Below, one piece after another: positions 10,441 to 60,866 of a DNA stretch of 64,000 nucleotides. A program made the position numbers and the translations under genes. How positions within the stretch are numbered: the first letter of the stretch is position 1; the number at the start of each line of letters is the position of its first letter. Source of the stretch: Imbricaverruca yamaguchii (lineage: Eukaryota; Arthropoda; Thecostraca; Neoverrucidae); NCBI GenBank assembly GCA_034440575.1, contig JAOTOL010001324.1, positions 62,001 through 126,000 of the forward strand, in the 5' to 3' direction. A model generated the notes under the pieces. It searched no databases, was not told where the DNA came from, and saw nothing but the letters and a program-made list of their open reading frames with translations.

Positions 10441-10458
10441 TAAGCTGCAGCCTTTAGG

Positions 10459-11406
10459 ATGGTTTCGACCAGGATGCAGGCACTAGAGGAAGAAATTAGG
10501 ACCCTTAAGGCAGAGGTTTCCAAGCTCAAGGCTGCCCTTGTTGCACAGGGTAGGCAAGATAAAGCAACATGGGGTCACTCCGTAGCAGGGACATCATATG
10601 CCCAGGTGGTCGCAGGCCACCAGGTAGCTGAGGCTTCCCATACTGTGGAGGTGTCTGGGATCTCTCAAGAGGGGAGTGTTAATAGTGAACAGAGGAGGGG
10701 TAGTTCAGGTAGGTCCCAGAAGGGGAAGTGGCATGAGGTCAGGGGGTGGAGGATTTGGAGACGCGAACCTAAGGAAAGGGTCAGTGAGTGGCAGGTGGCA
10801 GGTGGTAGGAGCGGGAGGGAGTCTAGCCGACCGGCCCAGCGGGCAGGCATAGTAACAACAAATATGTTCCAGGCATTGGATGACTGCCCCCAGGATAGCA
10901 GTAGTAAGGAGTCAGTGCTGGTCATAGGAGACTCTCGTGTGCGACATTTAGAGCGGGTATTTTGTAAAGGTAGGAGGGACAGGAGGTGCATCACCAGGCC
11001 TGGTGCCAAGGTGAAGGACCTGGTACCTGCGGTGGCACAGGCCACCAGTGATCACCAGTTTAACAGAGTCATAGTGCATGTAGGGGTAAATAACATACGT
11101 CATACTAGGAGTGAGGAGCTTCTGCGGGAGTACAGGGCCCTTCTGGCCACCCTGAAGGGTACCAATAGAGTCATTGTAACAGCAATTTTGCCTAGGGCTA
11201 GAGCCTCCCCTGAGTGGAGCTCTAGGGCACTGGCAGCTAACGCCAGGGTAGGAAAGCTCTGCCATGAGCTAGGTTTTACATTTGTAGACGAGTGGAGCAG
11301 GTTTTATGCATCGTGGGACCTCTATCAGAGGGATGGCCTGCACTTTTCTGAGAAGGGGGTCCATGTGTTAGGCAAAGTATACGAGCATGTCCTTCAGGGA
11401 AACTAG
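10459..11406 (+). CDS. CR1 ORF1: coiled-coil plus SGNH hydrolase-like domain protein
   Basis: This intact frame of 315 codons starts MVSTRMQALEEEIRTLKAEV, a heptad-like coiled coil over about residues 5-30. The middle (about 35-150) is basic and low complexity. From about residue 152 there is an SGNH/GDSL-type fold: VLVIGDSRVRHLE (block I, GDS serine), then a VHVGVNNI block corresponding to the GxND region, and DGLHFSEKGVHVLG near the end, which supplies the Asp-His block (DGLH). CR1 and L2 ORF1 proteins with such an esterase domain are a known class thought to bind RNA or membranes during retrotransposition. The reading frame has no stop, so this copy of ORF1 could still be translated, although ORF2 is broken. 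Copy B retains only the second half of this ORF. Confidence 0.85.
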   Translation: MVSTRMQALEEEIRTLKAEVSKLKAALVAQGRQDKATWGHSVAGTSYAQVVAGHQVAEASHTVEVSGISQEGSVNSEQRRGSSGRSQKGKWHEVRGWRIWRREPKERVSEWQVAGGRSGRESSRPAQRAGIVTTNMFQALDDCPQDSSSKESVLVIGDSRVRHLERVFCKGRRDRRCITRPGAKVKDLVPAVAQATSDHQFNRVIVHVGVNNIRHTRSEELLREYRALLATLKGTNRVIVTAILPRARASPEWSSRALAANARVGKLCHELGFTFVDEWSRFYASWDLYQRDGLHFSEKGVHVLGKVYEHVLQGN

Positions 11407-11414
11407 GAAATGGG

Positions 11415-14153
11415 GTGGGGAGGGATGAAATTGCATTGCCAACTCAGGAGTATTCCAATAGTGTCAGCCAAGGCAATAGAACGTCAAAGTCTGCAAATAG
11501 GGACAGCAGCAACTCAAGGGGACATAGTTATAGTTCATCTAGTGATAAAAGAACTCCTCAATATGAAAAAGCCAAAGGTGGTTATGGAGCATTTGTTAAG
11601 TGTATGATGTTTGATACTCAGAGTATTCGATCCACATTTGATGAGTTCAAGTGTTATGTTGCTGAGGAGGAACCAGATTTTGTTTGCATTACGGAGGCAT
11701 GGGTCAGTGAAGGGTATTTTGGAGATAACTTACAGGACTATGAGATCCAGGGATACAATATGTTTTCGTGTAATAGAGGTCCAGCAATGAAAGGGGGTGG
11801 GGTATTGCTCTATATGAATAGCTTATTCAGTTCTCAAAAAGTAGCAGGTGGGGATAAAAATGTGTCTGTGGAGTCCATTTGGCTTGATGTCACTGTGGGA
11901 AAAGGCAACAGCAATGCTCTTAGGATAGGAGCTTTCTACCGATCAGGAACCCTGCCACATTCTCAGCTTGGTTGACTCAGACTTGGTTCTAGACTTGACT
12001 GTAGGCGAAACTCTGGGAAAAAGTGACCATAACATAGTTAGATTCAAGGCACATGTAAGGGAAATTATCAAGGATAATTTGGTAAAGGTTCCAAATTTCA
12101 ACAGAGCAGACTTTGACGGCATGAGAGCGGCTTTAAGTGCCATCAGATGGGAAGAAGAATTCTCCAATTTAAATGCCTGTGAAATGTGGGAAAAGTTAAA
12201 ATCTTACTTGAAGGAAACTCAGATTAGACATGTCCCCCAAAAGCAAAGACACAAAAGAAGGGTAGGAAAGCCAGCATGGCTTACACCAGACTTGATAAAA
12301 GCAATTAAGGCTAAGAAAACTGCATTTAGAGTTTTTAAAGAAGCCTCAAATGTTGTTAATCTAAAGGCGTATCGAAAAGCTAGAGACATTGTGAAGCAAA
12401 AAACTAGAGCAGCAAAGCGAGCAAAAGAACTGGATTTAGCTAGAAACTGTATTGGGGACAGTAAAAAGTTCTTTAGTTTCTACAAGCTGAGTAAAGTTTC
12501 TAGCACAATTGGTCCACTGGAAGTAAACTGGACTACATTGGATGAGGATAGTGAGATGATTGAGGAGCTGAGCAAGCAGTTCAAATAAGTGTTTACATTG
12601 GAAGATATGATCAATCTGCCGACCGTACACCATAGTTCAGTGACATGGGATCTGACAAATGATGTTGATTTCATTGATAGTGATGTTGTTTACAATCATA
12701 TCAGGAAAATAAAGCGAAATAAGGCAGCAGGACCTGATGAAATTTATGCTAGGGTGTTGCGGGAAACTGAAAAGGAACTGGCATTTCCACTTAGTATAAT
12801 ATTTTGTAGATCAGTTTCACATAATGAAATTCCAACCGATTGGAAAAGGGCAAATGTAGTTCCTGTTTTCAAGAAAGGAGAAAGAGGGTAAGTTGAAAAC
12901 TATAGGCCAATAAGTCTCACATCCCTAGTCTGCAAGGTACTCGAATCAATTATCAAGGATAGAATAGTTAGTTATCTGGAAGGTAGCAGATTGATTCAAG
13001 ATACTCAACATGGGTTTAGAAAAGGGCGATCGTGTCTCACAAACCTCTTGGACTTTTTTAACTTCGCCACAGAACAATTTGATCAGGGAAATCAGGTTGA
13101 TGTAGCATATCATGACTTTAGTAAGGCCTTTGACAAGGTACCCCATAAACGGTTAATGATACAGCTTCAGTCCCATGGTATTGCAGGTAGCATCTTAAAA
13201 TGGATAGAGTTGTGGCTTTCAGATAGACAGCAAAGAGTGATGCTAAATGGTACAAAGTCATCATGGCAAAATGTTCTTAGTGGAGTCCCCCAGGGGTCAA
13301 TACTAGGGCCATTACTGTTCATTATATTTGTAAATAACATTGAAAGTGGCCTAAGCAGTAAAGTTTTGAAATTTGTGGATGATTTGAAGGTCTTTAGGGC
13401 AATAACAGGTCAGGATGAGCATATCTCGCTGCAAAAAGACTTAGACGAACTTGTGAAGTGGTCCGAAGAATGGCAAATGAAATTTAATTTTGATAAGTGC
13501 AAAATCATGCACGTAGGTAAGCAGCATATGAAGGCTCCATACTTGATGGGTGGCCAAGTGCTATCAGTGACTCAACAGGAGAAGGATTTAGGTGTTATTC
13601 TAAACACAAAACTGGGGGCATCAGAACAGACCAAGGAAGCCAGGAAGAAGGCAATGAGAATGCTCGGGGCAATAAATAGGAATGTATCATACGGAAGTGA
13701 GGAAGTGATCAGGAAGCTTTACTGTGTATACGTCAGGCCACATTTGGAATACTGCATCCAAGCTTGGTCTCCTAGCTATGAAAAAGATTGTTGGCTTTTT
13801 GAGAGAGTACAAAAGAGGGCTACAAAAATGGTTAATGGCATAAGCAACCTGCCATATGAGGAAAGATTGAAGAAATTGAATATGTTTTCACTTAGATATA
13901 GAAGGCTGAGAGGAGATCTCATCGAGGTCTTTAAATTTGTCTATGGTCTGGAGAGGGGATACCTTGGGGAAATGTTTGAATTTAACAGAAATGATGCAAT
14001 TAGAGGTCATAAATTCAAAATTAAAGTTAACCACAGCAGAACAAGGTTAAGGCAAACTTTCTTCACCAACAGGGTAGTAGAACACTGGAACCAGCTGCCA
14101 AAAAAACATCGTCAGTAGCAGCACATTGAACATCTTTAAAACAGCATAGACAA
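11415..14153 (+). pseudogene. CR1 ORF2: endonuclease plus reverse transcriptase, broken
   Basis: The frame starting at 11415 encodes the N-terminal endonuclease: MMFDTQSIRS (about 11605), CITEAW with the catalytic Glu, and KGGGVLLYMN. In copy B the first motif reads MMFNAQGIRSK, so copy A has lost the conserved Asn. The endonuclease is cut short at about 11965 by a deletion that also shifts the frame. The RT continues from 11968 with HVPQKQRHKRRVGKPAWLT, NKAAGPDEI, GFRKGRSCLTNLLDF, DFSKAFDKVPH (motif A), SGVPQGSILGPLLF (motif B) and FVDD (motif C, FADD in copy B). In-frame stops lie at 12586-12588 and 12889-12891, and a frameshift near 14110 separates the last codons (STLNIFKT). There is no RNase H, as expected for CR1. 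It is not functional. Confidence 0.88.
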
Positions 14154-14442: not shown

Positions 14443-14581
14443 CACTCAAGGAGACTCCCTTTATCAACTATTGGGATTACCAAAGACGGCTACTCCCGAA
14501 GAGATCAAGAAGACATACCGAAAGCTTGCCCTGAAGTATCATCCAGACAAGAACCCAAATAATCCTGAAGCTGCAGAAAAG
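14443..14581 (+). CDS. Csp: Cysteine string protein, J-domain exon
   Basis: This exon encodes [34 protein letters not shown] and EAAEK, the first three helices of a DnaJ domain. The HPD tripeptide at 14540-14548 stimulates Hsc70 ATPase. Csp (DNAJC5 family) is a vesicle-bound co-chaperone that works with Hsc70 and SGT to keep SNARE proteins such as SNAP-25 folded at nerve terminals. The identity is fixed by the next exon, which carries the cysteine string. The acceptor is ATTTGCTCCAG at 14432-14442. The first base completes a split Ser codon, so an upstream coding exon (about a dozen residues in insects) is expected but was not found. The donor is AAAAG|GTATTG at 14581/14582, phase 0. A CR1 copy ends about 160 bases upstream. 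Confidence 0.93.
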
Positions 14582-15247: not shown

Positions 15248-15532
15248 TTTAAGGAGATCAACAGAGCCCACTCCACGCTGAGCGACTCAGTGAAGCGCAA
15301 CATCTACGACAACTATGGCTCGATGGGCCTGTACATAGCCGAACAATTCGGCGAGGAGAACGTCAACACCTACTTCCTGGTGACATCCGGCTGGTGTCGC
15401 GCACTCTTCATCTTCTGCGGCGTTATCACCGGCTGCTACCTGTGCTGCTGCTTCTGCTGCTGCTGCAACTTCTGCTGCGGCAAGTGTCGGCCGGCGCCGC
15501 CGGACGAAACCGGCGACTACCACAATCTGGAC
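15248..15532 (+). CDS. Csp: Cysteine string protein, J-domain end, linker and cysteine-string exon
   Basis: This 95-codon exon (285 nt, phase 0 at both ends) begins [13 protein letters not shown], the last helix of the J domain. It continues [20 protein letters not shown] and EENVN, the linker that is nearly invariant in Csp. From about residue 54 it has a hydrophobic stretch running into the palmitoylated string, [12 protein letters not shown] (DNA about 15440-15480), with 13 cysteines in about 32 residues including the flanks. Palmitoylation of this string anchors Csp to synaptic vesicles. The exon ends [12 protein letters not shown]. The acceptor CCCCCAG ends at 15247, and the donor CTGGAC|GTGAGT is at 15532/15533. 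The donor and the last exon bases are copied into every unit of the adjoining minisatellite. If the donor were missed, a stop would come after eight more codons (TGA at 15557-15559). Confidence 0.96.
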
Positions 15533-18190
15533 GTGAGTGGCTCCGCTGTCTGGCCGTGAATTGCATGGCAGACTGGTGGTGGGCTGTACAGCTGGAACGT
15601 GAGTTGTATGGCAGACTGGTGGTGGGCTGTACAGCTGGGACGTGGGTAGTATGGCAGACTGGTGGTGGACTGTACAGCTGAGACGTGAGTTGTATGGCAG
15701 ACTGGTGGTGGGCTGTACAGCTGGGACGTGAGTTGTATGGCAGACTGATGGTGGGGTGTACAGCTGGGACATGGGTTGTATGGCAGACTGGTGGTGGGCT
15801 GTACAGCTGGGACGTGGGTAGTATGGCAGACTGGTGGTGGGCTGTACAGCTGGGACGTGGGTAGTATGGCAGACTGGTGGTGGCCTGTACAGCTGGGACG
15901 TGGGTAGTATGGCAGACTGGTGGTGGGCTGTACAGCTGGGACGTGGGTAGTATGGCAGACTGGTGGTGGGCTGTACAGCTGGGACGAGTATGGCAGACTG
16001 GTGGTGGGCTGTACAGCTGGGACGTGGGTAGTATGGCAGACTGGTGGTGGCCTGTACAGCTGGGACGTGGGTAGTATGGCAGACTGGTGGTGGGCTGTAC
16101 AGCTGGGACGTGGGTAGTATGGCAGACTGGTGGTGGGCTGTACAGCTGGGACGTGAGTAGTATGGCAGACTGGTGGTGGGCTGTACAGCTGAGACGAGTA
16201 TGGCAGACTGGTGGTGGGCTGTACAGATGGGACGTGGGTAGTATGGTAGACTGGTGGTGGGCTGTACAGCTGGGACGTGAGTTGTATGGCAGACTAGTGG
16301 TGGGCTGTACAGCTGGGACGTGGGTGTACAGCTGGTGGTGGGCTGTACAGCTGGGACGTGAGTTGTATGGCAGACTGGTGGTGGGCTGTACAGCTGGGAC
16401 GTGGGTGTACAGCTGGTGGTGGGCTGTACAGCTGGGACGTGAGTTGTATGGCAGACTGGTGGTGGGCTGTACAGCTGGGACGTGGGTGTACAGCTGGTGG
16501 TGGGCTGTACAGCTGGGACGTGAGTTGTATGGCAGACTGGTGGTGGGCTGTACAGCTGGGACGTGGGTGTACAGCTGGTGGTGGGCTGTACAGCTGGGAC
16601 GTGAGTTGTACGGCAGACTGGTGGTGGGCTGTACAGCTGGGACGTGGGTGTACAGCTGGTGGTGGGCTGTACAGCTGGGACGTGAGTTGTATGGCAGACT
16701 GGTGGTGGGCTGTACAGCTGGGACGTGGGTGTACAGCTGGTGGTGGGCTGTACAGCTGGGACGTGAGTTGTATGGCAGACTGGTGGTGGGCTGTACAGCT
16801 GGGACGTGGGTGTACAGCTGGTGGTGGGCTGTACAGCTGGGACGTGAGTTGTACGGCAGACTGGTGGTGGGCTGTACAGCTGGGACGTGGGTGTACAGCT
16901 GGTGGTGGGCTGTACAGCTGGGACGTGAGTTGTATGGCAGACTGGTGGTGGGCTGTACAGCTGGGACGTGGGTGTACAGCTGGTGGTGGGCTGTACAGCT
17001 GGGACGTGAGTTGTATGGCAGACTGGTGGTGGGCTGTACAGCTGGGACGTGGGTGTACAGCTGGTGGTGGGCTGTACAGCTGGGACGTGAGTTGTATGGC
17101 AGACTGGTGGTGGGCTGTACAGCTGGGACGTGGGTGTACAGTGGTGGTGGGCTGTACAGCTGGGACGTGAGTTGTTGGCAGACTGGTGGTGGGCTGTACA
17201 GCTGGGACGTGGGTGTACAGCTGGTGGTGGGCTGTACAGCTGGGACGTGAGTTGTATGGCAGACAGGTGGTGGGCTGTACAGCTGGGACGTGGGTGTACA
17301 GCTGTTGGTGGGCTGTACAGCTGGGACGTGAGTTGTATGGCAGACTGGTGGTGGGCTGTACAGCTGGGACGTGGGTGTACAGCTGGTGGTGGGCTGTACA
17401 GCTGGGACGTGAGTTGTATGGCAGACTGGTGGTGGGCTGTACAGCTGGGACGTGGGTGTACAGCTGGTGGTGGGCTGTACAGCTGGGACGTGAGTTGTAT
17501 GGCAGACTGGTGGTGGGCTGTACAGCTGGGACGTGGGTGTACAGCTGTCCGTCCAGTGTTGGCTGTACAGCTGGGACGTGAGTTGTATGGCAGACTGGTG
17601 GTGGGCTGTACAGCTGGGACGTGGGTGTACAGCTGGTGGTGGGCTGTACAGCTGGGACGTGAGTTGTATGGCAGACTGGTGGTGGGCTGTACAGCTGGGA
17701 CGTGGGTGTACAGCTGGTGGTGGGCTGTACAGCTGCCCACACCAGCCCACCGCCACCCCACCGCATGGCTGGCGGTGGGCTGTACAGCTGGGACGTGGGT
17801 TGTAGCATGGCTGGCGGTGGGCTGTACAGCTGGGACGTGGGTTGTAGCATGGCTGGTGGTGGGCTGTACAGCTGGGACGTGGGTTGTAGCATTGCTGGTG
17901 GTGGGCTGTACAGCTGGGACGTGGGTTGTAGCATGGCTGGTGGTGGGCTGTACAGCTGGGACGTGGGTAGTATGGCAGACTAGTGGTGGGCTGTACAGCT
18001 GGGACGTGGGTAGTATGGCAGACTAGTGGTGGGCTGTACAGCTGGGACGTGGGTTGTAGCATGGCTGGTGGTGGGCTGTACAGCTGGGACGTGGGTTGTA
18101 GCATGGCTGGTGGTGGGCTGTACAGCTGGGACGTGGGTAGTATGGCAGACTAGTGGTGGGCTGTACAGCTGGGACGTGGGTTGTAGCATG
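15533..18190 (+). repeat. 43-bp minisatellite with 81-bp higher-order unit, containing 5' splice-site copies
   Basis: The basic unit is 43 bp and includes GTATGGCAGACTGGTGGTGG, GCTGTACAGCTGGGAC and GTGAGT or GTGGGT. From about 16280 to 17720 it alternates with a shortened form lacking ATGGCAGACTG, giving an 81-bp higher-order repeat (successive GAGTTGTAT at 16441, 16522 and 16603). From about 17765 the unit is 42 bp with TAGCATGGCTGGTGG. Each unit holds CTGGGAC followed by a donor-like GTGAGT/GTGGGT, matching the exon end CTGGAC|GTGAGT. I estimate about 60 such copies. An interruption at about 17733-17770 has C-rich sequence resembling an inverted piece. Because 81 is a multiple of three, stop-free frames of over 500 codons arise on both strands. 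They are not genes. Confidence 0.95.
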
Positions 18191-18194
18191 ACTG

Positions 18195-19068
18195 GTGCCT
18201 ACAGCATGCCCAGGGTGCGTGTCATGGCGCACAACCTCCACGTATGCTGGGCAAAATTCGGGCCATGGGTTATGCCAGGGCCTAGTTGGTTGGGAGTTTT
18301 CCTATAACTCAGACAGAGTTAACTTAATGGCTTTTCGCTTGGTGTGAGATGTTGAAACGAGCACATTGGGATGTCAAAATTTACCACGGAATTAGGGTCA
18401 TTTAAAATGCTTTTGATGCATGAGACTCAAATTCGAGCTCATGGTGTAGGCACTTGATGATGTAGGCGGCTGATGTAGGTTCCAAGGTGTAGGATGTGGA
18501 TACTTCTTGGATAAGGATGTTGATTGAGCATTGAGAAAGTGGTATATATCACACTATTTCACGAATAATGTATTACTGCTTAGACCGAAACTTTCTGATT
18601 ATGCATCCAATCCACGAGCCAACCTAACCCAACCTAACGCAACCCACGAGCAAACCTAACCAAACCTAACACAACCCACGAGGCAGCCTAACCCAACCCA
18701 CGAGCTAGCTCCTATCGGATATTTGAAGTTGTACCATGTTTGTGGCTTTCAACAAGTGAGATTCAGATGCCAAAACAGGTTCTAATTTAGCTCAATTTAG
18801 TGCACGCTCACTATCATGACAATACCAGGCACTCACAACCAGAGATTGAAAGCCAAATTCACGCTAGTAGTCGCACATTCACCTTGATTTAATGTAATGA
18901 TGGAATCGCAATCTGTGTTATTTATATTGTGGATTATATAAGTTGGCGCAATTTCCCGGGCATTTGCGAACAAATCGAGAAACACTAATTAAATTAGAAT
19001 AGTGGGATATTTGTCAAAAAACGTGTGTTGGCTATGCAGGTGCTAGAATCCTTGGCTGTGAGCTAAAG
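18195..19068. other. Unassigned intronic sequence with CCTAAC-rich patch
   Basis: No gene seen. At about 18610-18715 there are irregular AACCTAACC and ACCCACGAG repeats. CCTAA resembles the arthropod telomere repeat complement, but the spacing is irregular and no pure array exists. Confidence 0.4.
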
Positions 19069-19597
19069 CAGGTCCCCACAGCCATTAGATCACTACAGGT
19101 CTCCACAGCCATTAGATCACTACAGGTCTCCACAGCCATTAGATCACTACAGGTCTCCACAGCCATTAGATCACTATAGGTCTCCACAGCCATTAGATCA
19201 CTACAGGTCTCCACAGTCATTAGATCACTACAGGTCTCCACAGCCATTAGATCACTACAGGTCTCCACAGTCATTAGATCACTACAGGTCTCCACAGCCA
19301 TTAGATCACTACAGGTCTCCACAGTCATTAGATCACTACAGGTCTCCACAGTCATTAGATCACTACAGGTCTCCACAGCCATTAGATCACTACAGGTCTC
19401 CACAGTCATTAGATCACTACAGGTCTCCACAGCCATTAGATCACTATAGGTCTCCACAGCCATTAGATCACTACAGGTCTCCACAGCCATTAGATCACTA
19501 CAGGTCTCCACAGCCATTAGATCACTACAGGTCTCCACAGCCATTAGATCACTACAGGTCTCCACAGCCATTAGATCACTACAGGTTTCCACAGTTA
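19069..19597. repeat. 27-bp tandem array, about 19 units
   Basis: The unit is CAGCCATTAGATCACTAC followed by AGGTCTCCA, 27 bp, with few variants (GCC/GTC at one site, TATAGG for TACAGG). High uniformity suggests recent expansion. The length is nine codons, so the minus strand reads as a repeated MAVETCSDL peptide. There is no flanking coding context and I treat it as intronic minisatellite. Confidence 0.95.
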
Positions 19598-19604
19598 AAT
19601 ACAA

Positions 19605-21138
19605 CGAGAAATGGTTCTTAAATGCTCCTGGGTCTTAGACATTGCGTGAGAAGAAATGTACGATCTTCAATATACCAGGTGGTGCTGAGTTTACATCACA
19701 AGTAACGTTAAGTATTGTATTGTATTACTGTATTACTGTATAATGTATGATTATATTAAAGGTCGTATATTTCTTTTCACGCAAGGTTTCCACAGTTGTC
19801 TATTCATGCCATCCATTGTCGTCTTATGTCGCTTAGCTCGCCGCGCTACCATGTGGCAAATGTTTTCTGCGTGTAGCGTTTCATCACAGTATGATCAGTT
19901 CTGGCAAGGCAAGTTTTATTTGTGTTATCGCTAATGCTTTTCATGGCTGTGCTATGATGCATCACTCGGTTATGCTTCCTGCTGCGTCTCAACGCATTGC
20001 AGTGCTATCTGTCGGGTTTGTTGCTTTTTGATTTGCTGAACATTACATTTTGTTAACTACTTCTAAGATATGCCACTCATTCAACGGTTTTATCGTGGTC
20101 ATTTATATCTATATGTGTTCCTGGGAAGAGGTGTGTGAGAGAAAGTGTTCGTGAGGACAAAGTTCCTATTGCATAAATGTACTTGCCATAATATCCTTAT
20201 ACAACTTTTCCCCATACGAGCTAAGGTTATTTTAGTTCATGCAATAATAAATGCTTACTTTTGTGAAATGTACTTCTTTTGATTTAGCACAAAAAGATAT
20301 CGGCTGCCATTCTTGGATGTAATGTTGACATTTTTGCATGCACGTTGACTGTACCAGATATAATAGCTATGAAGTAACCGTAAAATGTCTGTTTTGTTTT
20401 CTTTTAACATCCAAATTTTCTCCTTGACAGATGTTTGTTTAACTGCTCCAAAGCAAGTATCCTTCACAGTGTATGCGGTCGTCATATGCTCTACACTGCT
20501 ACAATGCTTTATATGTTTTCCAGTGTTGGGCGAAATCTTTCCGGATATTTCAGCTTGAAGCGATCACGGAGAGCCCCAATGAATGCTTCTTCGCCTATTG
20601 ACTTTGATTCACCTCCATTGCTCTGACCAAGGCCCAGGGATGATGCAATTGGAATATACTGACGAGGAAAATTCTACCGGAACCTTGAGTCAAGTAAAAG
20701 TTATCGCTTAGCTTGCATTTGAAGATCGGCAGTTCTCTGTATTCATTTTCATATGCTCGATGTTGTGTTATCTGTGTTATTATGATGGCGTCTGCGTTGG
20801 CTTATCCCAGGTGATTGTGTGTAGTCTGGTGTGCTCGAGCGCGGCGACTGAGCCGATCTGTGTAGCTAGCGCCGGCCAGCGCCATCTACCCGCTCGTGAC
20901 GCGCTTCACTGAGGTGCTGTCGGTTGTGTTTCGTTAGACCGATGGGCCCGAGGTGGTAGTCAGCCAGCCGTCTTCGTCCGGATTCCAACAGGTAGGTCGT
21001 GGCCGTGGCCTGCGCGCTCGCCGAGGCTTCCGAGCGTAGCTGATCATTGATGGATGACTGATGATGCATGATCACCATCTATGATCATTGGTTAGCATGC
21101 TGTGATGGTTGATTAGCGTCCACACTTGGTAATGCGAG
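19605..21138. other. Unassigned intronic sequence
   Basis: No gene recognised. Bases 20825-21050 are GC- and CpG-rich, somewhat like 8155-8830, with no coding signal. Confidence 0.35.
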
Positions 21139-21305
21139 GGTCGCGGTGGTTCGGTCCATAGGGCGTTCGACTCTTGATCGTGATATCGTGGGTTCGAATC
21201 CCATAATCTGCAAGATCGCCGAGTCCACCTTCGATCAATTGGCGTGAGATGTTGGTGATCCTGTGTGACCCAGCAGTAGAATGTGTCGTAAAAGAGCCCA
21301 AGGTT
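21139..21305 (+). mobile_element. SINE with tRNA-Lys-like head
   Basis: The head resembles a tRNA with GACTCTTGATC in the anticodon position (closest to tRNA-Lys CTT) and a polymerase III B box GGTTCGAATCC at 21191-21201. The downstream part, about 21231-21293, has GGCGTGAGAT and ATGTGTCGTAAAA. This body is shared with the tRNA-Met-like SINEs at 26675 and 52763 although the heads differ. Target-site duplications were not found, so it is an older copy. Confidence 0.65.
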
Positions 21306-22071: not shown

Positions 22072-24487
22072 CAGTGCTGGTCATAGGAGACTCTCGTGTG
22101 CGACATTTAGAGCAGGTATTTTGTAAAGGTAGGAGGGACAGGAGGTGCATCACCAGGCCTGGTGCCAAGGTGAAGGACCTGGTACCTGCGGTGGCACAGG
22201 TCACCAGTGATCACCAGTTTAACAGTCATAGTGCATGTAGGGGTAAATAACATAGGTCATACTAGGAGTGAGGAGCTTCTGCGGGAGTACAGGGCCCTTC
22301 TGGCCACCCTGAAGGGTACCAATAGAGTCATTGTAACAGCAATTTTGCCTAGGGCTAGAGCCTCCCCTGAGTGGAGCTCTAGGGCACTGGCAGCTAACGC
22401 CAGGGTAGGAAAGCTCTGCCATGAGCTAGGTTTTACATTTGTAGACGAGTGGAGCAGGTTTTATGCATCGTGGGACCTCTATCAGAGGGATGGCCTGCAC
22501 TTTTCTGAGAAGGGGGTCCATGTGTTAGGCAAAGTATACGAGCATGTCCTTCAGGGAAACTAGGAAATGGGGTGGGGAGGGATGAAATTGCATTGCCAAC
22601 TCAGGAATATTCCAATAGTGTCAGCCAAGGCAATATAACCTCAAAGTCTGCAAATAGGGACAGCAGCAACTCAAGGGGACAGAGTTATAGTTCATCTAGT
22701 GATAAAAGAACTCGATATGTAAAAGCCAAAGGTGGTTATGGAGCATTTGTTAAGTGTATGATGTTTAATGCTCAGGGTATCCGTTCCAAATTTGATGAGT
22801 TCAAGTGTTATGTTGCTGAGGAGGAACCAGATTTTGTTTGCATTACGGAGGCATGGGTCAGTGAAGGGTATTTTGGAGATAACTTACAGAACTATGAGAT
22901 CCAGGGATACAATATGTTTTCGTGCAATAGGGGTCCAGCAATGAAAGGGGGTGGTGTAATGCTCTATATGAATAGCTTATTCAGTTCTCAAAAAGTAGCA
23001 GGTGGGGATAAAAATGTGTCTGTGGAGTCCATTTGGCTTGATGTCACTGTGGGAAAAGGCAACAGCAATACTCTTAGGATAGGAGCTTTCTTCCGATCAG
23101 GAACCTTGCCACATTCTCAGCAACTGGTGCTTGACAAGGTGATTTGTGAGGAAATCAGTAGAAACTTAGAGAGAGGAAAGAGGAAACTAGAAAGAGGAAG
23201 TGCCTTATTATCGGTGACTTTAATCTAAAAGGTTATGAAAATGCTGGTGTTGGCTCCCCATCATGCAAAATGTTTAGGAAATGCCTTGAAGAGGACCTGT
23301 TCTTACACCAGTTTGTATCGGAACCTACCAGGTATGGTTCATTCTTGGACCTTGTATTCTCGGATTTAAGTGACTTGGTTCAAGACTTGACTGTAGGCGA
23401 AACTCTGGGAAAAAGTGACCATAACATAGTTAGATTCAAGGCACATGTAGGGGAAATTATCAAGGATAATTTGGTAAAGGTTCCAAATTTCAACAGAGCA
23501 GACGTTAACGGCATGAGAGCGGCTTTAAGTGCCATCAGATGGGAAGAAGAATTCTCCAATATAAATGCCTGTGAAATGTGGGAAAGGTTCAAATCTTACT
23601 TGAAGGAAACTCAGATTAGACATGTCCCCCAAAAGCAAAGACGCAAAAGAAGGGTAGGAAAGCCAGCATGGCTTACACCAGACGTGATAAAAGCAATGAA
23701 GGCAAATGATGTTGATTTCATTGATAGTGATGTTGTTTACAATCATATCAGGAAAATAAAGCCAAATAAGGCAGCAGGACCTGATGAAATTTATGCTAGG
23801 GTGTTGCGGGAAACTGAAAAAGAACTGGCATTTCCACTTAATATAATATTTTGTAGATCAGTTTCACATAATGAAATTCCAACCGATTGGAAAAGGGCAA
23901 ATGTAGTTCCTATTTTCAAGAAAGGAGAAAGACGGAAAGTTGAAAACTATAGGCCAATAAGTCTCACATCCCTAGTCTGCAAGGTACTCGAATCAATTAT
24001 CAAAGATAGAATAGTTAGTTATCTGGAAGGTAGCAGATTGATTCAAGATACTCAACATGGGTTTAGAAAAGGACGATCGTGTCTGACAAACCTCTTGGAC
24101 TTTTTGAACTTCGCCACAGAACAATTTGATCAGGGAAATCAGGTTGATGTAGCATATCTTGATTTTAGTAAGGCCTTTGACAAGGTACCCCATAAACGGT
24201 TAATGATACAGCTTCAGTCCCATGGTATTGCAGGTAGCATCTTAAAATGGATAGAATTGTGGCTTTCAGATAGACAGCAAAGAGTGATGCTAAATGGTAC
24301 AAAGTCATCATGGCAAAATGTTCTTAGTGGAGTCCCCCAGGGGTCAGTACTAGGGCCATTACTGTTCATTATATTTGTAAATAACATTGAAAGTGGCCTA
24401 AGCAGTAAAGTTGTGAAATTTGCGGATGATTTGAAGGTCTTTAGGGCAATAACAGGTCAGGATGAGCATATCTCGCTGCAAAAAGAC
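22072..24487 (+). mobile_element. CR1-type non-LTR retrotransposon, copy B, truncated at both ends
   Basis: This copy starts abruptly inside ORF1 at CAGTGCTGGTCATAGGAG, just before the SGNH GDS block, and ends inside the RT after CTGCAAAAAGAC. The ORF1 remainder (to 22563) and ORF2 are very similar to copy A at 10440-14285. It keeps the endonuclease segment that copy A lost, including a GDFN motif near 23213 and the SDHN motif near 23417. It lacks about 345 bases between KAMKA and NDVDFIDSD (23704) that copy A still has. A frameshift near 23190 separates the endonuclease from the rest. Sense orientation in the Csp intron. Confidence 0.9.
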
Positions 24488-24511
24488 TCTATGAAAAGAC
24501 ATTGCGACTGA
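22572..24511 (+). pseudogene. CR1 ORF2 copy B: endonuclease and partial reverse transcriptase
   Basis: The frame from 22572 carries MMFNAQGIRSK (conserved Asn), CITEAW (Glu) and KGGGVMLYMN. It then shifts near 23190. The frame from 23270 carries LDLVFSDL, SDHNIVRF, NKAAGPDEI, a region with RPISLTSLVCKVLE, GFRKGRSCLTNLLDF, LDFSKAFDKVPH (motif A), SGVPQGSVLGPLLF (motif B) and FADD (motif C). The nonsense codons of copy A (12586 region deleted, 12889 reads Arg-Lys here) are absent. The RT thumb is missing because the copy ends just past motif C, so the protein is dead despite well-preserved motifs. Confidence 0.88.
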
Positions 24512-27384: not shown

Positions 27385-28096
27385 CTCACCAGCTGACACT
27401 GACATCGGATGTCTGACCTCGCTAGCTGACACTGACATCGGATGTCTGACCTTGCCAGCCGACACTGACGTATGTTTGACATCGCCAGCCCACACTGACG
27501 TCGGATGTCTGACTTCACCAGCTGACAGTGACGTCGGATGTCTGACCTCGCCAGCCGACACTGACGTCGGATGTCTGACCTCGCCAGCCGACACTGATGT
27601 CGGATGTCTGACCTCGCTAGCTGACACTGACATCGGATGTCTGACCTCGCCAGCCGACACTGACGTCGGATGTCTGACCTCGCCACCCGACACTGACGTC
27701 GGATGTCTGACCTCGCTAGCTGACACTGACGTCGGATGTCTGACCTCGCCAGCCGACACTGACGTCGGATGTCTGACCTCGCTAGCTGACACTGACATCG
27801 GATGTCTGACCTCGCCAGCCGACACTGACGTCGGATGTCTGACCTCGCCAGCCGACACTGACGTCGGATGTCTGACCTCGCTAGCTGACACTGACGTCGG
27901 ATGTCTGACCTCGCCAGCCGACACTGACGTCGGATGTCTGACCTCGCTAGCTGACACTGACGTCGGATGTCTGACCTCGCCAGCCGACACTGACGTCGGA
28001 TGTCTGACCTCGCTAGCTGACACTGACGTCGGATGTCTGACCTCGCCAGCCGACACTGACGTCGGATGTCTGACCTCGCCAGCCGACACTGACGTC
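27385..28096. repeat. 33-bp minisatellite, about 21 units, next to Csp exon 3
   Basis: The unit is GACCTCGCCAGCCGACACTG followed by ACGTCGGATGTCT. Two main variants, CGCCAGCCGAC and CGCTAGCTGAC, partly alternate to give a 66-bp period. The last unit ends in the unique sequence GAGCACCCGGCCGTGGAG, about 97 bases before the proposed exon-3 acceptor. Each unit contains a CGCCAG or CGCTAG trinucleotide context resembling a weak 3' splice site. Units of 33 bp keep frames open on both strands. Confidence 0.95.
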
Positions 28097-28192
28097 GAGC
28101 ACCCGGCCGTGGAGCCAGGACCTCATCAAGTGACGGCAGCTCTCGGTGCCCGAGCTGGCCAAGTGTCCTATGACCGTGACCCATGCCGCCAG

Positions 28193-28424
28193 GGCGACGA
28201 CGATCTTGACCTGGAGTCGGGTCAGAGTCCGACGGTAGACGGGGATCAGCCGGTGACCAATCAGCCGCAGGTATTCGCCATGCCGGCGCCACCTCCGCCG
28301 CCGCCGACCGGCCAGAGCCAAGCACACCAGTCAACCAACCCCAACAACCCATTCACGTCATCGGCGCCTCCGCCCACCGAGAGCACTGGCCTCAAGACGG
28401 CCGAGCAGACTACCTATACACCAG
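28193..28424 (+). CDS. Csp: Cysteine string protein, C-terminal region exon
   Basis: The frame reads GDDDLDLESGQSP, then QVFAMPAPPPPPP, NPFTSSAPPP and LKTAEQTTYTP. An acidic DLD patch, a VFAMP motif, an NPF motif and the ending T-EQTTYTP are the features I remember from insect Csp C termini, where the sequence continues with a few more residues. The proposed acceptor CATGCCGCCAG ends at 28192 and gives phase 0, matching exon 2. 28100 is an alternative start. The donor ACACCAG|GTGGGT is at 28424/28425, phase 1, so the final residues are in a further exon that I could not find. The 3' end of this exon is the seed sequence of the following ~47-bp array. Confidence 0.88.
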
Positions 28425-28915
28425 GTGGGTGGGATCAGGTCACGTCAAGCCACGATGGCAGACCACTCTCACACCAGGTGGCTAGGGTCAGCTGGGCAGA
28501 CTACACACCAGGGAATAGGATCAGCCCAGGTCAGGTCAGATGGGCGGGCCATGTATCCGCCAGGTGGATGGGGTCGGGTCAGATCAGACGTACAGACCAT
28601 CTGCACACTAGATGGGTATAGCCAGGTTGGGTCAAACGTTCGGACCATTTACACACCAAGCGGGTGGCATCAGGTTAGGTCAGATCGGCAGATCATCTAC
28701 ACACTAGGTGGGTATGGTCAGGTCAGGTCAGACGGGCGGACCATTCACGCACGAGATGGGTAGTATCAGATCTGACCAGATTGGTTGATGATCTGCACAC
28801 TAGGTGGATGTGGTCAGGTTAGGTCGGATGGGCAAACGATTTATACCAGGTGAGTAGCGTCAGATCATATGTGCGAACCATTTACACATCGGGTGGATGG
28901 GATGAAGTCAGATGC
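28404..28915 (+). repeat. Diverged ~47-bp tandem repeat seeded by the exon-3 donor
   Basis: About eleven units follow the pattern GGCAGACCATCTACACACYAG, then GTGGGTATGGTCAGGTCAG. The first unit is the end of Csp exon 3 itself (GAGCAGACTACCTATACACC followed by AGGTGGGTGG). Donor-like CAG|GTGG or TAG|GTGG is retained in roughly half the units, including GCCAGGTGGATGG (28559), ACTAGGTGGGTATGG (28702) and ACCAGGTGAGTAGC (28846). AGGTCAGGTCAG strings in the second half of units resemble nuclear-receptor half-sites. It is older and more diverged than the array at 15533. Confidence 0.8.
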
Positions 28916-29265
28916 ACAGATTCCCAGATTCCCTCGCACAATTCCCAGGTGTAGTGAATATCGATATGCTGAATAACTAAATATCTTTGAATCCAATTTG
29001 CCTGAAACTTGTCAAGAGAGGTCTTGCGAGTCTTGCGAGTTGGGCTGCTGAGAAGAATGCTATGTTCATCTTCATACGCGGTAATCTGAGGGAGGATAAT
29101 GCAACTCACCAAGGGAATGGGTGGCATAAAATTGTTCCACATGTGTAATTTTTTTTCAGTGGTATTGTGTGGAAAATTATCCATGGAAATGATAGGTAAG
29201 AGAGGAAAGTTATTTCTTCTTAGGTGTCACTTTCCATTAAAATTAGGAAGTCTTAAGGCGCTGCC
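28916..29265. other. Unassigned sequence between two arrays
   Basis: No gene or repeat recognised. GTCTTGCGAGTCTTGCGAG near 29021 is a short local duplication. Confidence 0.4.
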
Positions 29266-30690
29266 GTGACATCTAAAGGCGAAGTAAGAAGGTCCGTGAC
29301 AACTGAGGACGAGGGTGGGAGGTCCGTGACATCTGAGGACGAGGGTGGGAGGTCCGTGACATCTTAGGACGAGGGTGGGAGGTTCGTGACATCTGAGGAC
29401 GAGGGTGGGAGGTTCGTGACATCTTAGGACGAGGGTGGGAGGTTCGTGACATCTGAGGACGAGGGTGGGAGGTTCGTGACATCTGAGGACGAGGGTGGGA
29501 GGTTCGTGACATCTGAGGACGAGGGTGGGAGGTTCGTGACATCTGAGGACGAGGGTGGGAGGTTCGTGACATCTGAGGACGAGGGTGGGAGGTTCGTGAC
29601 ATCTGAGGACGAGGGTGGGAGGTTCGTGACATCTTAGGACGAGGGTGGGAGGTTCGTGACATCTGAGGACGAGGGTGGGAGGTTCGTGACATCTGAGGAC
29701 GAGGGTGGGAGGTTCGTGACAACTGAGGACGAGGGTGGGAGGTTCGTGACATCTTAGGACGATGGTGGGAGGTTCGTGACATCTGAGGACCAAGGTAGAA
29801 AGTTCGTGACATCTGAGGACCAAGGTAGAATGTCCGTGACAACTGAGGATGAGGGTGGGAGGTTCGTGACATCTGAGGACCAAGGTAGAATGTTCGTGAC
29901 ATCTGAGAACCAAGGTAGAAGGTCCGTGACATCTGAGGACAAAGGTAAAAGGTTCGTGACATCTGAGGACCAAGGTAGAAGGTCCGTGACAACTGAGGAC
30001 CAAGGTAGAAGGTCCGTTATATCTGAGGACGAGGGTGGGAGGTCCGTGACAACTGAAGGCCAAGATAGAAGGTCCGTGACATCTGAAGACCAAGGTAGAA
30101 GGTCCGTGAAATCTGAGGACCAAGGTAGAAGGTCCGTGACAACTGGGGATGAGAGTGGGAGGTCCGTGACATCGGAGGACCAAGGTAGAAGGTCCGTGAC
30201 ATCTGATGAAGAGGGTGGGAGGTCCGTGACATCTGAGGACGAGGGTGGGAGGTTCGTGACATCTTAGGACGATGGTGGGAGGTTCGTGACATCTGAGGAC
30301 CAAGGTAGAAAGTTCGTGACATCTGAGGACTAATGTAGAAGGTCCGTGACATCTGAGGACGAGGGTGCGAGTTCCGTGACATCTGAAGACGAGGGTGAGA
30401 GGTTCATGACATCTGAGGACGAAGGTAGAAGGTTCGTGACATCTGATGACGAGGGTGGGAGGTTCGTGACATCTGAAGACGAGGGTGGGAGGTTCGTGAC
30501 ATCTGAGGACCAAGGTAGAAGGTCCGTGAAACCTGAGGACGAGGGTGGGAAGCCCGTAAAATTTGAGACGATGGTGAAAGGTTAGTGACCTCTGACGATG
30601 AGAGTGGTATGTCCCCGACATTTGCGAACCAAGGTAGAGAGTCCGTGACATCTAAGAACTGTGGCGGGAAGTCCGCATCGGGGAAGACAT
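29266..30690. repeat. 30-bp tandem array, about 46 units
   Basis: The unit is GACATCTGAGGACGAGGGTG followed by GGAGGTTCGT, with a second class carrying GACCAAGGTAGAAGGTCCGT. The first 500 bases are almost all class 1, and the next 500 mix both classes. A block containing ATCTTAGGACGATGGTGGGA plus the following AAAGTTCGTG unit occurs near 29750-29810 and again near 30260-30320, indicating a duplication of about 17 units. The plus-strand frame reads TSEDEGGRFV repeats but is broken by TAG in several units. I see no coding context. Confidence 0.95.
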
Positions 30691-33535: not shown

Positions 33536-34905
33536 CTGGCTCGCCCGCATCAGCCTCCTCTCCGTCTGCCCGTCTTTCCTCGCTTCAGCTTGCCCGCATC
33601 AGTCGCCCTTCTCCGTCTTCCCGTCTGTCCTCTCTTCGGCTCGCCCACATCAGTCGCCCCTCTCCGTCTGCCCGTCTGTCCTCTTCGGCTCGCCCACATC
33701 AGTCGCCCTTCTCCGTCTTCCCGTCTGTCCTCTCTTTGGCTCGCCAACATCAGTCGCCCTTCTCCGTCTTCCCGTCTGTCCTCTCTTGGGCTCGCCCACA
33801 TCAGTCTCCCCTCTCCGTCTGCCCGTCTGTCCTCTCTTCGGCTCGCCCACATCAGTCTCCCCTCTCCGTCTGCCCGTCTGTCCTCGCTTCGGCTCGCCAG
33901 CATCAGTCTCCCCTCTCCGTCTCCTCTCCCCGTCTCTCCTCGCTTCGGCTCGCCAGCATCAGTCTCCCCTCTCCGTCTCCTCTCCGTCTGTCCTCGCTTC
34001 GGCTCGCCAGCATCAGTCTCCCCGCTCCGTCTCCTCTCCGTCTGTCCTCTCTTCGGCTCGCCCACATCAGTCTCCCCTCTCCGTCTGCCCGTCTGTCCTC
34101 GTTTCGGCTCACCAGCATCAGTCTCCCCTCTCCGTCTCCTCTCCGTCTGTCCTCGCTTCGGCTCGCCAGCATCAGTCTCCCCTCTCCGTCTCCTCTCCGT
34201 CTGTCCTCGCTTCGGCTCGCCAGCATCAGTCTCCCCTCTCCGTCTCCTCTACGTCTGTCCTCGCTTCGGCTCGCCAGCATCAGTCTCCCCTCTCCGTCTC
34301 CTCTCCGTCTGTCCTCGCTTCGGCTCGCCAGCATCAGTCTCCCCTCTCCGTCTCCTCTCCGTCTGTCCTCGTTTCGGCTCACCAGCATCAGTCTCCCCTC
34401 TCCGTCTCCTCTCCGTCTGTCCTCGCTTCGGCTCGCCAGCATCAGTCTCCCCTCTCCGTCTCCTCTCCGTCTGTCCTCTCTTCGGCTCGCCCACATCAGT
34501 CTCCCCTCTCCGTCTGCCCGTCTGTCCTCGTTTCGGCCCACCAGCATCAGTCTCCCCTCTCCGTCTCCTCTCCGTCTGTCCTCGCTTCGGCTCGCCAGCA
34601 TCAGTCTCCCCTCTCCGTCTCCTCTCCGTCTGTCCTCGCTTCGGCTCGCCAGCATCAGTCTCCCCTCTCCGTCTTCTCTACGTCTGTCCTCGCTTCGGCT
34701 CGCCAGCATCAGTCTCCCCTCTCCGTCTCCTCTCCGGCTGTCCTCGCTTCGGCTCGCCAGCATCAGTCTCCCCTCTCCGTCTCCTCTCCGTCTGTCCTCG
34801 TTTCGGCTCACCAGCATCAGTCTCCCCTCTCCGTCTCCTCTCCGTCTGTCCTCGCTTCGGCTCGCCAGCATCAGTCTCCCCTCTCCGTCTCCTCTCCGTC
34901 TGTCC
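33536..34905. repeat. CT-rich 51/54-bp minisatellite, about 26 units
   Basis: The main unit (54 bp) is CTCGCTTCGGCTCGCCAGCA, then TCAGTCTCCCCTCTCCGTCT and CCTCTCCGTCTGTC. A 51-bp form has GCCCGTCTGTC and CGCCCACATCAG. The plus strand is nearly continuous pyrimidine broken by CAG and TCAG, so every unit looks like a polypyrimidine tract plus 3' splice site. Unit lengths are multiples of three, which gives several overlapping frames of 360-507 codons on both strands. No signal peptide or flanking exon supports coding. Confidence 0.95.
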
Positions 34906-40412: not shown

Positions 40413-40489
40413 GAGAACATCTACTACGGACGCCTGGACGATGAACAGACCTCTGCCTTGCGCTCCCGTCGTCGGAGACTGCGGCGACT
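40413..40489 (+). CDS. Candidate exon of unknown gene, abutting a minisatellite
   Basis: The frame reads SENIYYGRLDDEQTSALRSR followed by RRRLRRL. Codon choice is G/C-rich at third positions, unlike the surroundings, and an acceptor-like AATGTCAGTCCAG precedes it (ending 40412). The end, GCGGCGACTC, is repeated in every unit of the following array, as in the Csp donor arrays, but CTC|GTGACG is a poor donor. I do not recognise the protein. It could equally be non-coding. Confidence 0.3.
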
Positions 40490-40828
40490 CGTGACGTCAG
40501 GCTTGCGGCCGGAACATGCCACCAGGCGGCACACGGACGTCGGGCTGGCGGCCAGTACATACCACCGGGCGGCGACTCGTGACGTCAGGCTTGCGGCCGG
40601 AACATGCTACCAGGCGGCACACGGACGTCGGGCTGGTGGCCAGTACATACCACCAGGCGGCGACTCGTGACGTCAGGCTTGCGGCCGGAACATGCCATCA
40701 AGCGGCACACGGACGTCGGGCTGGTGGCCAGTACGTACCACCAGGCGGCGAGTCGTGACGTCAGGTTGGCGGCCAGTACGTACCACCAGGCGGCGACTCG
40801 TGACGTCAGGTTGGCGGCCGGTACGCGT
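40481..40828 (+). repeat. 44/88-bp tandem array (left part)
   Basis: An 88-bp dimer contains GCGGCGACTCGTGACGTCAG, GCGGCCGGAACATGCCACCA, GGCGGCACACGGACGTCGG and GGCCAGTACATACCACC. The period is fixed by GCGGCGACTC at 40481, 40569 and 40657. It is homologous to and in the same orientation as the 43-bp array at 41533-42340. Confidence 0.9.
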
Positions 40829-41532: not shown

Positions 41533-42340
41533 CCACACGGCCGGTACATACCACCAGGCGGCACACGGACATCAGGTTGGCGGCCGGTACATACCACCGG
41601 GCGGTACACGGACATCAGGCTGACGGCCGGTACATACCACCGGGCGGTACACGGACATCAGGCTGATGGCCGGTACATACCACCGTGCGGTACACGGATA
41701 TCAGGCTGACGGCCGGTACATACCACCGTGCGGTACACGGACATCAGGCTGATGGCCGGTACATACCACCGTGCGGTACACGGATATCAGGCTGACGGCC
41801 GGTACATACCACCGTGCGGTACACGGACATCAGGCTGACGGCCGGTACATACCACCGGGCGGTACACGGACATCAGGCTGACGGCCGGTACATACCACCG
41901 TGCGGTACACGGACATCAGGCTGATGGCCGGTACATACCACCGTGCGGTACACGGATATCAGGCTGACGGCCGGTACATACCACCGTGCGGTACACGGAC
42001 ATCAGGCTGACGGCCGGTACATACCACCGTGCGGTACACGGACATCAGGCTGATGGCCGGTACATTCCACCGTGCGGTACACGGACATCAGGCTGACGGC
42101 CGGTACATACCACCGTGCGGTACACGGACATCAGGCTGATGGCCGGTACATTCCACCGTGCGGTACACGGACATCAGGCTGACGGCCGGTACATACCACC
42201 GTGCGGTACACGGACATCAGGCTGATGGCCGGTACATTCCACCGTGCGGTACACGGACATCAGGCTGACGGCCGGTACATACCACCGTGTGGTACACGGA
42301 CATCAGGTTGGCAGCCGGTACATTCCACCAGGCGGCACGC
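41533..42340 (+). repeat. 43-bp tandem array (right part), about 18 units
   Basis: The unit is ACGGACATCAGGCTGACGGC followed by CGGTACATACCACCGTGCGG and TAC. Successive ACGGACATC at 41608 and 41651 fix the 43-bp period. Alternation of GACGG and GATGG gives an 86-bp sub-period. Each unit holds the imperfect palindrome CCGTGCGGTACACGG. The outermost units carry CCAGGCGGCAC, the variant found in the left array. Confidence 0.95.
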
Positions 42341-42694
42341 GGACGGCGACCAGAGGCGCTTGTTACCCCCCGATGAGGCCTGTCTAAATAGGTTTGTGGC
42401 TATCTAGGACACATTAAAGTTTAGTAAAACGTCTTCCTGATTTGGTTGCACAATCTTGGAGAGCTTCAGCGAAATTGGCGGACAGTATGTCACCGTCACC
42501 GAGCTTCCTGTAACAATTTTTGCTTGGATCCCGGCAGATCGACATCGACCAAATTGTGCCCAGATTTGATTCAAGTCAAGGGCGGCGGAACGTATCGCAG
42601 CAAAGGGGAGGGGAGGAGGTGCTGTACTCAGTCATCCATTTAATCTGTACTGGCTCTGACTGGCGTTGGCGATTTGTTGTGACTCAAGCGTCAA
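42341..42694. other. Unassigned sequence
   Basis: No gene recognised between the array and the THAP-like repeat. Confidence 0.4.
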
Positions 42695-57000: not shown

Positions 57001-58319
57001 CCATGGTCGTGGTGCTGCGTGCAAGGCCATATAGCATTACTTTTCTGTTGATGGATGCTTGTGAGTTGTGTGCAACTTGTATTGATAGCTCCTGCTATCA
57101 AAGAGGCTTTCAGCTCATTGGGATTTTGAGACACTGGAAAACTTCATTCCAATTGAGGTTCCAATCGCTATTCCATCGGTTTTGTTTTGAGGACACCTTG
57201 AATTCGAAATTTGGGATACTGGGAGGGGGAGGGAAGGGGTTCTAGTCAGGTGTAGGCTTTATATAATTGTTGGTGCTACCAACAAGTGATTCAACCATAT
57301 TTCGTTTTCAAGCATGGGTATACACTGAATACTGAAATGTAAAAATTATTGGTGTTACATTCGCTAAGCATATCGATAAGCATTCCCACCAATGAGGAAG
57401 GCCTGTTGTTCTTTGGTATGTTGAGCTACATTTTGATTTATCTTTGTAACAAGAATTTGGTGTCATTTCCAAATTCAGGGAGTGAATACCAGTATGGGGT
57501 GACCATGAGGGGGATATTTTAGTTTTACAGCAAGCAGGGGGTGGTTGGCTGGGCTCAGCCGCTGAAACATCATCGAAGTCAGTTTGGACTGTTAAAAGTG
57601 GTTGAATGTGTTCAGTGTATCTTTCTGTGTATGACTTAATTTAGACAAAAATAACCCATTTTTTGGCAAATTTTGTTCCTTGGCTTCACCTGAGATCAAA
57701 TCTTTGGTTGGCCTTGAAAGTCCACATATCGAGTTTATGCATTTGTTTATTGATGCATTGGCTTCCAAATCCATCTTAGCACAATTATGGCCAAAATAGT
57801 GAACTTGGTGGACAATTTTACATTTTGAAGTTATTTGTGCAGATGTAATTTCAGCAGTATGAACCGAACTTATTAAGGGATACCGAAAGGAAAACATTGG
57901 AACAGGGTGGGGAGGGAGAGGTTGAAATCCGGTGACTCAGAAACGATGTTGGTAGATTGAGTCCCTCACACAGAACAACTAAGTTGGTCACTAATTATTT
58001 TACTTTAGAAATAAGAATAGACCTGAAAAACAGTCAGCAAAATTGGTTTTACTTTGGGCGTAGATGGGCCAACTCCAAATCAATTTGCTCCCCCCCCCCC
58101 ACCCCTGATGCAAATCCTAGGTATGTCACTGTCCCCAGGTGTGTTCAAGGATAGTGAAATCGGAGGTGCCATGGGTGGCTCTGCATATCACTAATTAAAC
58201 ATTTCCACGGGCTACCAAATATTCAATGGAAGTAGGTATGGTGGGAAATGGTGTTTCCGATATTTGTATGTAGTACGGGTGTTATGACTGTATTTTACTA
58301 ATGCTTATACATTGTTTAT
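57001..58319. other. Unassigned sequence
   Basis: No gene recognised. A strong branch-point-like TACTAAT and polypyrimidine tract at about 58288-58321 belong to the next feature. Confidence 0.35.
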
Positions 58320-58321
58320 TT

Positions 58322-60215: not shown

Positions 60216-60866
60216 CTTTTTTTTGCGGCGTGCTAACACGTATGATTGAAAATGACATTTTATGAAGAAAATTGTCTCCGAGATAATTCCAAGATTCGGA
60301 ATCGACCGAGTATATAAGCACTATACTTCAGGCACCATTATAAATATTTAATAAGTTTGATACGCTGTTTCTTGGCCATATACAATGCAAAAGCGTATGA
60401 ATTCGTTTGATGGCACCTGATGCTTAACCAGGAACCCTTTGTAATCCTTCAGACAGCAGTGTTAATTTGCAGTCTAACTCTGATAAGTTTAGCCGCTCAG
60501 ATGCGAACTTGAGCTGCCCAGTGTGAGGCCTAATTCTCAGCTTAATTATTGCCTTTTTCTATATTATTCGGCTAGTAATTCTGGCCAGAGCATGCACATG
60601 TCGTCTACGGTATGATTGTTGACAATGTGAAGTATTATTCCCGATCTAGTCCCCACTAACTCGTGTTTATTCTAATTTTATGTGCATTGTTGGGTTTTGA
60701 TGTCATATTTGAACTTAGCCAGTTGAGCCACTGCTAACTCTTATTCCTATGGCAACAAGACTGAGCAGTGGCTCAAGTTCTTTGGATCCTTAGCCTGCGT
60801 TACTAACTCACACCCACATCTATTAGTTATATTGTCGCAGTAATGACATTGCTCTCGGCATTGCAG
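60216..60866. other. Unassigned sequence before candidate exon
   Basis: No gene recognised. The last bases, GCTCTCGGCATTGCAG, form a good 3' splice site. Confidence 0.4.

Follow-up and report, generated by a model that had tools for sequence, protein, structure and literature searches.

In this study, we analyzed a stretch of 64,000 nucleotides from the barnacle Imbricaverruca yamaguchii (contig JAOTOL010001324.1, positions 62,001 to 126,000; hereafter the window), with emphasis on two minisatellite arrays that directly follow 5' splice sites (donors) of one gene. Protein homology revealed that the window carries part of a cysteine string protein gene (Csp, DNAJC5-like) on the + strand. Its closest protein relative was P0001 of Pollicipes pollicipes, at 77% as listed by the search and 82% when aligned (with a query that included some intron read as coding), and named barnacle records accounted for five of the eight best protein matches. 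The exon set used here consists of the coding exons recognised via protein homology, and the acceptors were inferred likewise. The Csp exons and the features adjoining them are as follows (a slash marks the exon-intron boundary):

14443..14581, + strand: Csp coding exon A, ending in ...EAAEK, donor GTATTG, recognised by homology to Pollicipes P0001
15248..15532, + strand: Csp coding exon B, FKEINRAH...DYHNLD, donor GAC/GTGAGT
15533..18197, + strand: array 1, 2.66 kb directly behind exon B, delimited by Tandem Repeats Finder (TRF) and monomer cutting
15533..15555, + strand: first monomer of array 1, beginning at the G of the authentic donor; diverged, and equal to the first 23 intronic bases
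20938..20991, + strand: cassette-type Csp exon, TDGPEVVVSQPSSSGFQQ, donor CAG/GTAGGT, tblastn E=1.5e-6 with Pollicipes isoform P0001
28193..28424, + strand: Csp coding exon C, GDDDLDLESG...AEQTTYTP, donor CAG/GTGGGT
28403..28424, + strand: end of exon C (EQTTYTP codons), the segment that recurs in array 2 as copies together with the donor
28425..28920 (end approximate), + strand: array 2, in which the exon C/intron junction is repeated as 10 degenerate copies

The original prediction, made from this DNA alone, had taken the exon in front of array 1 for exon 2. This numbering was not retained: exon A precedes exon B by homology, and the MDKRKL-type start of the relatives must be placed in a further exon upstream of exon A. 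Exon B ends at 15532 with CTGGAC/GTGAGT.

The clearest result was obtained for array 2, which the original prediction had not mentioned. Its unit is composed of the last ~22 coding bases of exon C plus the donor, and so spans the exon-intron boundary. The positions equivalent to the donor GT are 28478, 28512, 28564, 28612, 28660, 28708, 28756, 28804, 28850 and 28893, with spacings of 34-53 bp (48 bp in five of the ten), and the GT itself has been lost in four of the ten copies. First, the 10-copy consensus, with the exon copy omitted, agreed with the real junction at 37 of 50 bases, against a maximum of 26 of 50 at 63,321 positions elsewhere, which strongly supports, for array 2, seeding by the splice junction, an idea put forward earlier for the array behind exon B. 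The exon side of the consensus agreed at 16 of 22 bases (at most 14 of 22 at 63,349 positions elsewhere), both figures coming from copies that had been picked by their junction likeness in a direct 30-mer test; in the exon frame it reads GRTIYTP, compared with EQTTYTP in exon C. Second, in the direct 30-mer test itself the best copies reached 22 of 30, compared with no more than 18 of 30 at 63,401 positions, and for the exonic 17 bases 10-13 were identical in the eight best copies (7-13 over the ten best rows), compared with no more than 8 at 93 other CAG/GT sites. Third, in a 36-base test of 9 arrays, each trimmed to its first 700 bases, against 8 junctions, none of the 1284 controls reached the score of the exon C donor with array 2. 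Three unrelated cells of this table had p=0.009, which we take as chance among 72. On the other hand, a gapped comparison restricted to the exon side gave a weaker result, being equalled by 30 of 2983 random sequences, by 8 of 99 other 40-mers from coding sequence and by 25 of 2000 shuffles. EQTTYTP was present in three of ten aligned relatives (P0001, P0003 and P0008), four have a related ...YTP ending, and P0002, P0004 and P0006 end ahead of this position. Because EQTTYTP or a ...YTP ending is kept in relatives, the end of exon C is, from these alignments, the likely source of the array 2 copies.

Array 1 (TRF score up to 4010) had been described as about 60 copies of the donor at the intron start, arranged in units of 38-43 bp that each contain CTGGGAC followed by a donor copy. 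The number was confirmed: CTGTACAG occurs 62 times in array 1 and nowhere else in the window, and in 59 of these cases GTGAGT or GTGGGT follows 7 nt on (56 with CTGGGAC and three with a one-base variant), the remaining sites being two without GT and one truncated. However, the 38-43-bp unit is not the basic one but a dimer of monomers of 18-23 bp, and the central part of the array is an 81-bp repeat of two dimers. Cutting at GTG[AG][AG], a rule that demands GTG at monomer starts and makes the invariance of those three columns uninformative, gave 121 pieces: 56 of 20 bp, 33 of 23 bp, 16 of 18 bp, 8 of 22 bp, one of 17 bp, and seven longer ones (38-55 bp), probably doubles that the rule left uncut. 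The 43-bp unit consists of GTGAGTTGTATGGCAGACTGGTG and GTGGGCTGTACAGCTGGGAC (23+20), two monomers that are mutually alike (equalled by 9 of 2000 shuffles). Among 22 units compared with the modal unit, the left edge unit had diverged to 34 of 43 identical bases, compared with at least 40 of 43 in the next seven, and the right edge unit, at 38 of 45, was barely below its neighbours (38-40 of 43-45). No protein resembling translated array 1 was found at E 0.001 among 7994 candidates. A C-rich stretch at 17735-17765, within the array, resembles by eye an inverted piece of the G-rich repeat.

The evidence that array 1 was seeded by its donor is less uniform, and has to be set against the possibility that it is an ordinary intronic minisatellite that grew beside the donor, the likeness to the donor being due to chance and the shared GTGAGT. 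The original prediction placed a repeat beside the exon end; the array does adjoin the exon, but its monomer register already begins at 15533, with the GT of the authentic donor itself. The first monomer agreed with the second at 14 of 23 bases, which only 54 of 54,190 control positions equalled, and with the modal 23-mer also at 14 of 23 (18 of 54,190). The coincidence of the register with the donor, the likeness of the first two monomers and the presence of the clearly junction-derived array 2 within the same gene all weigh against an ordinary minisatellite. Moreover, the 12-base junction query CTGGACGTGAGT was matched as well by only 9 of 2000 shuffled units and one of 2860 other 12-mers of the window. 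A dispersed satellite, which would have been another source, did not appear in the window, as blastn at E up to 1 found the array 1 unit nowhere outside array 1.

Several results weigh against seeding by the junction. Six of the 14 matches between the first monomer and the modal 23-mer are the donor hexamer; with GTGAGT excluded, the agreement is 8 of 17, which 2287 of 54,190 positions attain (although none of 38 other GTRRGT sites does), a weakness that an ordinary minisatellite would explain. Longer junction queries diluted the signal (27 and 93 of 2000 shuffles as good, the latter with 30 bases), and over seven query sizes 92, 164, 364, 368, 1423, 1584 and 7562 of 7627 control loci were as good. 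The likeness of array 1 to exon B is limited to CTGG-AC, which is not significant alone. Exon-only queries gave no signal against shuffled units of array 1, and the exon B end alone, in a test with the junction placed two bases too far 3', did no better than most controls: 2304 of 2877 from the window, 100 of 107 from coding sequence and 1827 of 2000 shuffles were as good. In the 36-base test the exon B donor and array 1 gave p=0.078, and the fit of array 1 to the donor of exon C was slightly closer (p=0.033). An ordinary origin is also favored by the surroundings, since five of the eight sizeable arrays detected by TRF in the window have no recognised exon nearby. Taken together, the sequence comparisons offer moderate evidence that array 1 was seeded by its donor, which we regard as likely, and a contribution of exon B bases as possible, the exon side being the part of the earlier claim that did not reach significance. 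Growth as an ordinary minisatellite appears rather unlikely.

It had also been suggested that the array acts as a decoy or buffer for U1, and a related possibility is that hairpins in the array RNA regulate Csp splicing. In favor of a decoy, GTGAGT is present in 22 array 1 copies, 21 of them with the authentic GAC ahead. However, among 32 monomers of 23 bp, donor position +4 is altered in 10, and only column 7 varies more (11 of 32). The 56 monomers of 20 bp and the 16 of 18 bp uniformly have G at +4 and therefore never carry GTGAGT; in array 2, four of ten copies are without GT. A stop codon also stands in the way, because splicing at array 1 donors located after 15559 would include the in-frame stop at 15557-15559. 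With regard to structure, a 124-nt piece of array 1 RNA folded better than all of 200 shuffles (z -5.3), but strong folding of array 1 is expected without function because CTGTACAG is palindromic (CUGUACAG). None of the 22 GTGAGT copies was predicted to be as open as the authentic site, but three of 37 GTGGGT copies were, and in array 2 the authentic site was predicted to be the least open of 11; structural masking of the array donors, a weak fit in array 1 and the opposite in array 2, was rejected. Selection on donor quality is not clearly visible in array 1, the decoy claim is unsupported, and we consider regulation through U1 or hairpins very improbable.

Another suggestion was that each unit resembles a 7-nt micro-exon between an acceptor-like and a donor-like site, and more generally the units might serve as micro-exons or alternative donors in transcripts, as the repeat donors of human IFI6 do. 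The units do contain donor-like 9-mers, a cassette exon is present downstream, and the array 2 copies at 28708 and 28850 had U1 duplex energies of -11.7 and -13.8 kcal/mol, compared with -12.5 kcal/mol for the authentic site (a rough guide, as the pairing register can shift). On the other hand, read-through into array 1 hits the stop at 15557-15559, eight codons past exon B, so that array 1 donors past 15559 cannot extend exon B without taking it in, and truncated transcripts would result if donors of array 1 other than the first copy were used. In array 2, the frame read through from exon C reaches a stop and ends at 28621, ahead of both the 28708 and the 28850 copy. Micro-exons were rejected for two reasons. 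First, of the two monomer types, one has CTGTACAG at its centre, and CTGTACAG corresponds to TTGTATGG in the sister monomer. Second, its pyrimidine tract is mostly missing: the 18 nt upstream of the AG region had a mean of 42% pyrimidine (maximum 61%, 62 sites), compared with 56-61% at the four inferred acceptors. Use of the array units as exons or donors therefore seems highly unlikely.

With regard to their position, an array edge lies no more than 30 bp downstream of two of the four Csp donors; random points did so in 5.5e-5 of trials, or 8.2e-4 with a 101-bp limit, in a test that was post hoc and in which the edges were set by the analyst using homology. On the other hand, the other two donors, of exon A and of the cassette exon, have no array behind them by TRF. 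Overall, we consider it probable that both arrays are minisatellites of the 'mirage' type described in amphioxus. A short tandem duplication would have captured the 5' splice site region of a Csp exon, and in array 2 also the last ~22 coding bases of exon C, and unequal exchange or slippage would then have spread the copies into the intron, in the direction from exon to array. The exon-proximal copy would remain the working donor, because only that copy keeps the known protein, and correct splicing would presumably have continued, while the other copies, being intronic, would be left to drift or homogenisation and would be neutral. Rather than serving splicing, the arrays appear to be side products of DNA being duplicated locally.

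Whether such events recur is a broader matter. Two donor arrays in one barnacle gene may suggest that duplication at donors is a wider mutational habit. In its strongest form, which we hold to be doubtful, 5'-splice-site-linked duplication would repeatedly seed minisatellites at many exon ends in barnacle genomes, as in amphioxus, through a process tied, for example, to R-loops at donors or to DNA breaks that occur there co-transcriptionally. The two Csp donors with arrays, out of four, would then mark two of its events of different ages, array 1 being young and homogenised and array 2 old and decayed. This bears on intron growth, on intron gain by boundary duplication, and on how a true donor is told from dozens of adjoining copies.

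Other elements of the window are listed below.

27385..28097, + strand: 33-bp minisatellite of ~22 units, ending 95 bp ahead of exon C, with its frame open into exon C
19069-19594 (27 bp), 29290-30607 (30 bp), 33538-34905 (54 bp): further minisatellites by TRF
40481-40824 (45/88 bp), 41537-42344 (43 bp): further minisatellites by TRF
10444-14118, 22174-24511: two retrotransposon-like copies with closely similar open reading frames (ORFs)
1365-2828: another ORF for a reverse transcriptase (Pfam RVT_1), with a stop breaking it near 1898
58274-60265: run of ORFs, zinc-finger-like or transposon-like by eye
21145-21212: marginal tRNA match (Rfam 29.4 bits, cutoff 29) in the Csp intron behind the cassette exon

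The window is rich in minisatellites. The 33-bp minisatellite was tried as an array derived from the exon C acceptor and rejected, the 36-base test being not significant (p 0.148). The retrotransposon-like copy at 10444-14118, with a GDSL lipase and a reverse transcriptase domain by Pfam, ends ~325 bp ahead of exon A. Two tested ORFs of the run at 58274-60265 had no Pfam match, and a viral contig pattern scan gave 0.

The Csp arrays were compared with several known systems. The nearest are the amphioxus 'mirages' of Adh3 and of the globins BflGb6 and BflGb9, minisatellite-like tandem duplications of an exon-intron boundary in which AG or GT is kept in many, although not all, copies (PMC3087553, PMC3902484); troponin C and, imperfectly, PGBD5 are further cases (PMC3902484). 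In these genes regular splicing is kept, and length instability, also somatic, has been reported. The Csp arrays likewise are tandem minisatellite-like repeats within a gene, and the array 2 unit likewise spans the exon-intron boundary, whereas the register of array 1 starts at the donor GT with only CTGG-AC on the exon side. Edge units of BflGb6 are reported to escape homogenisation; in array 1 the left edge unit (34 of 43) stands apart from its neighbours, and the right edge unit (38 of 45) hardly does. Unlike those mirages, the present case concerns an arthropod and two 5' boundaries in one gene, and the short monomers of array 1 number well over 100. No arthropod mirage was apparent from titles or the beginnings of abstracts in literature listings, which does not establish absence in print, and the words 'tandem' and 'satellite' are absent from the main text of the Pollicipes genome paper.

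In the splice-donor minisatellite of human IFI6 (6-16/G1P3; Turri et al., 1995; PMC4526556), donor-bearing repeat units also lie downstream of an exon and are used as donors; there they make isoforms, whereas use of those in array 1 would introduce a stop codon. Near intron pairs in Drosophila, attributed to intron gain via tandem duplication of proto-splice sites (PMC2891723), similarly involve duplicated splice-site-like sequence, but the Csp copies sit inside an existing intron and create no new one. The intronic minisatellite CeRep25B of C. elegans is over-represented near alternative splicing regions (PMC4039745); it differs from the Csp arrays in being a family across many genes. The Csp arrays add to a known class represented by the mirages and IFI6, of which array 2 is a clearer case than array 1.
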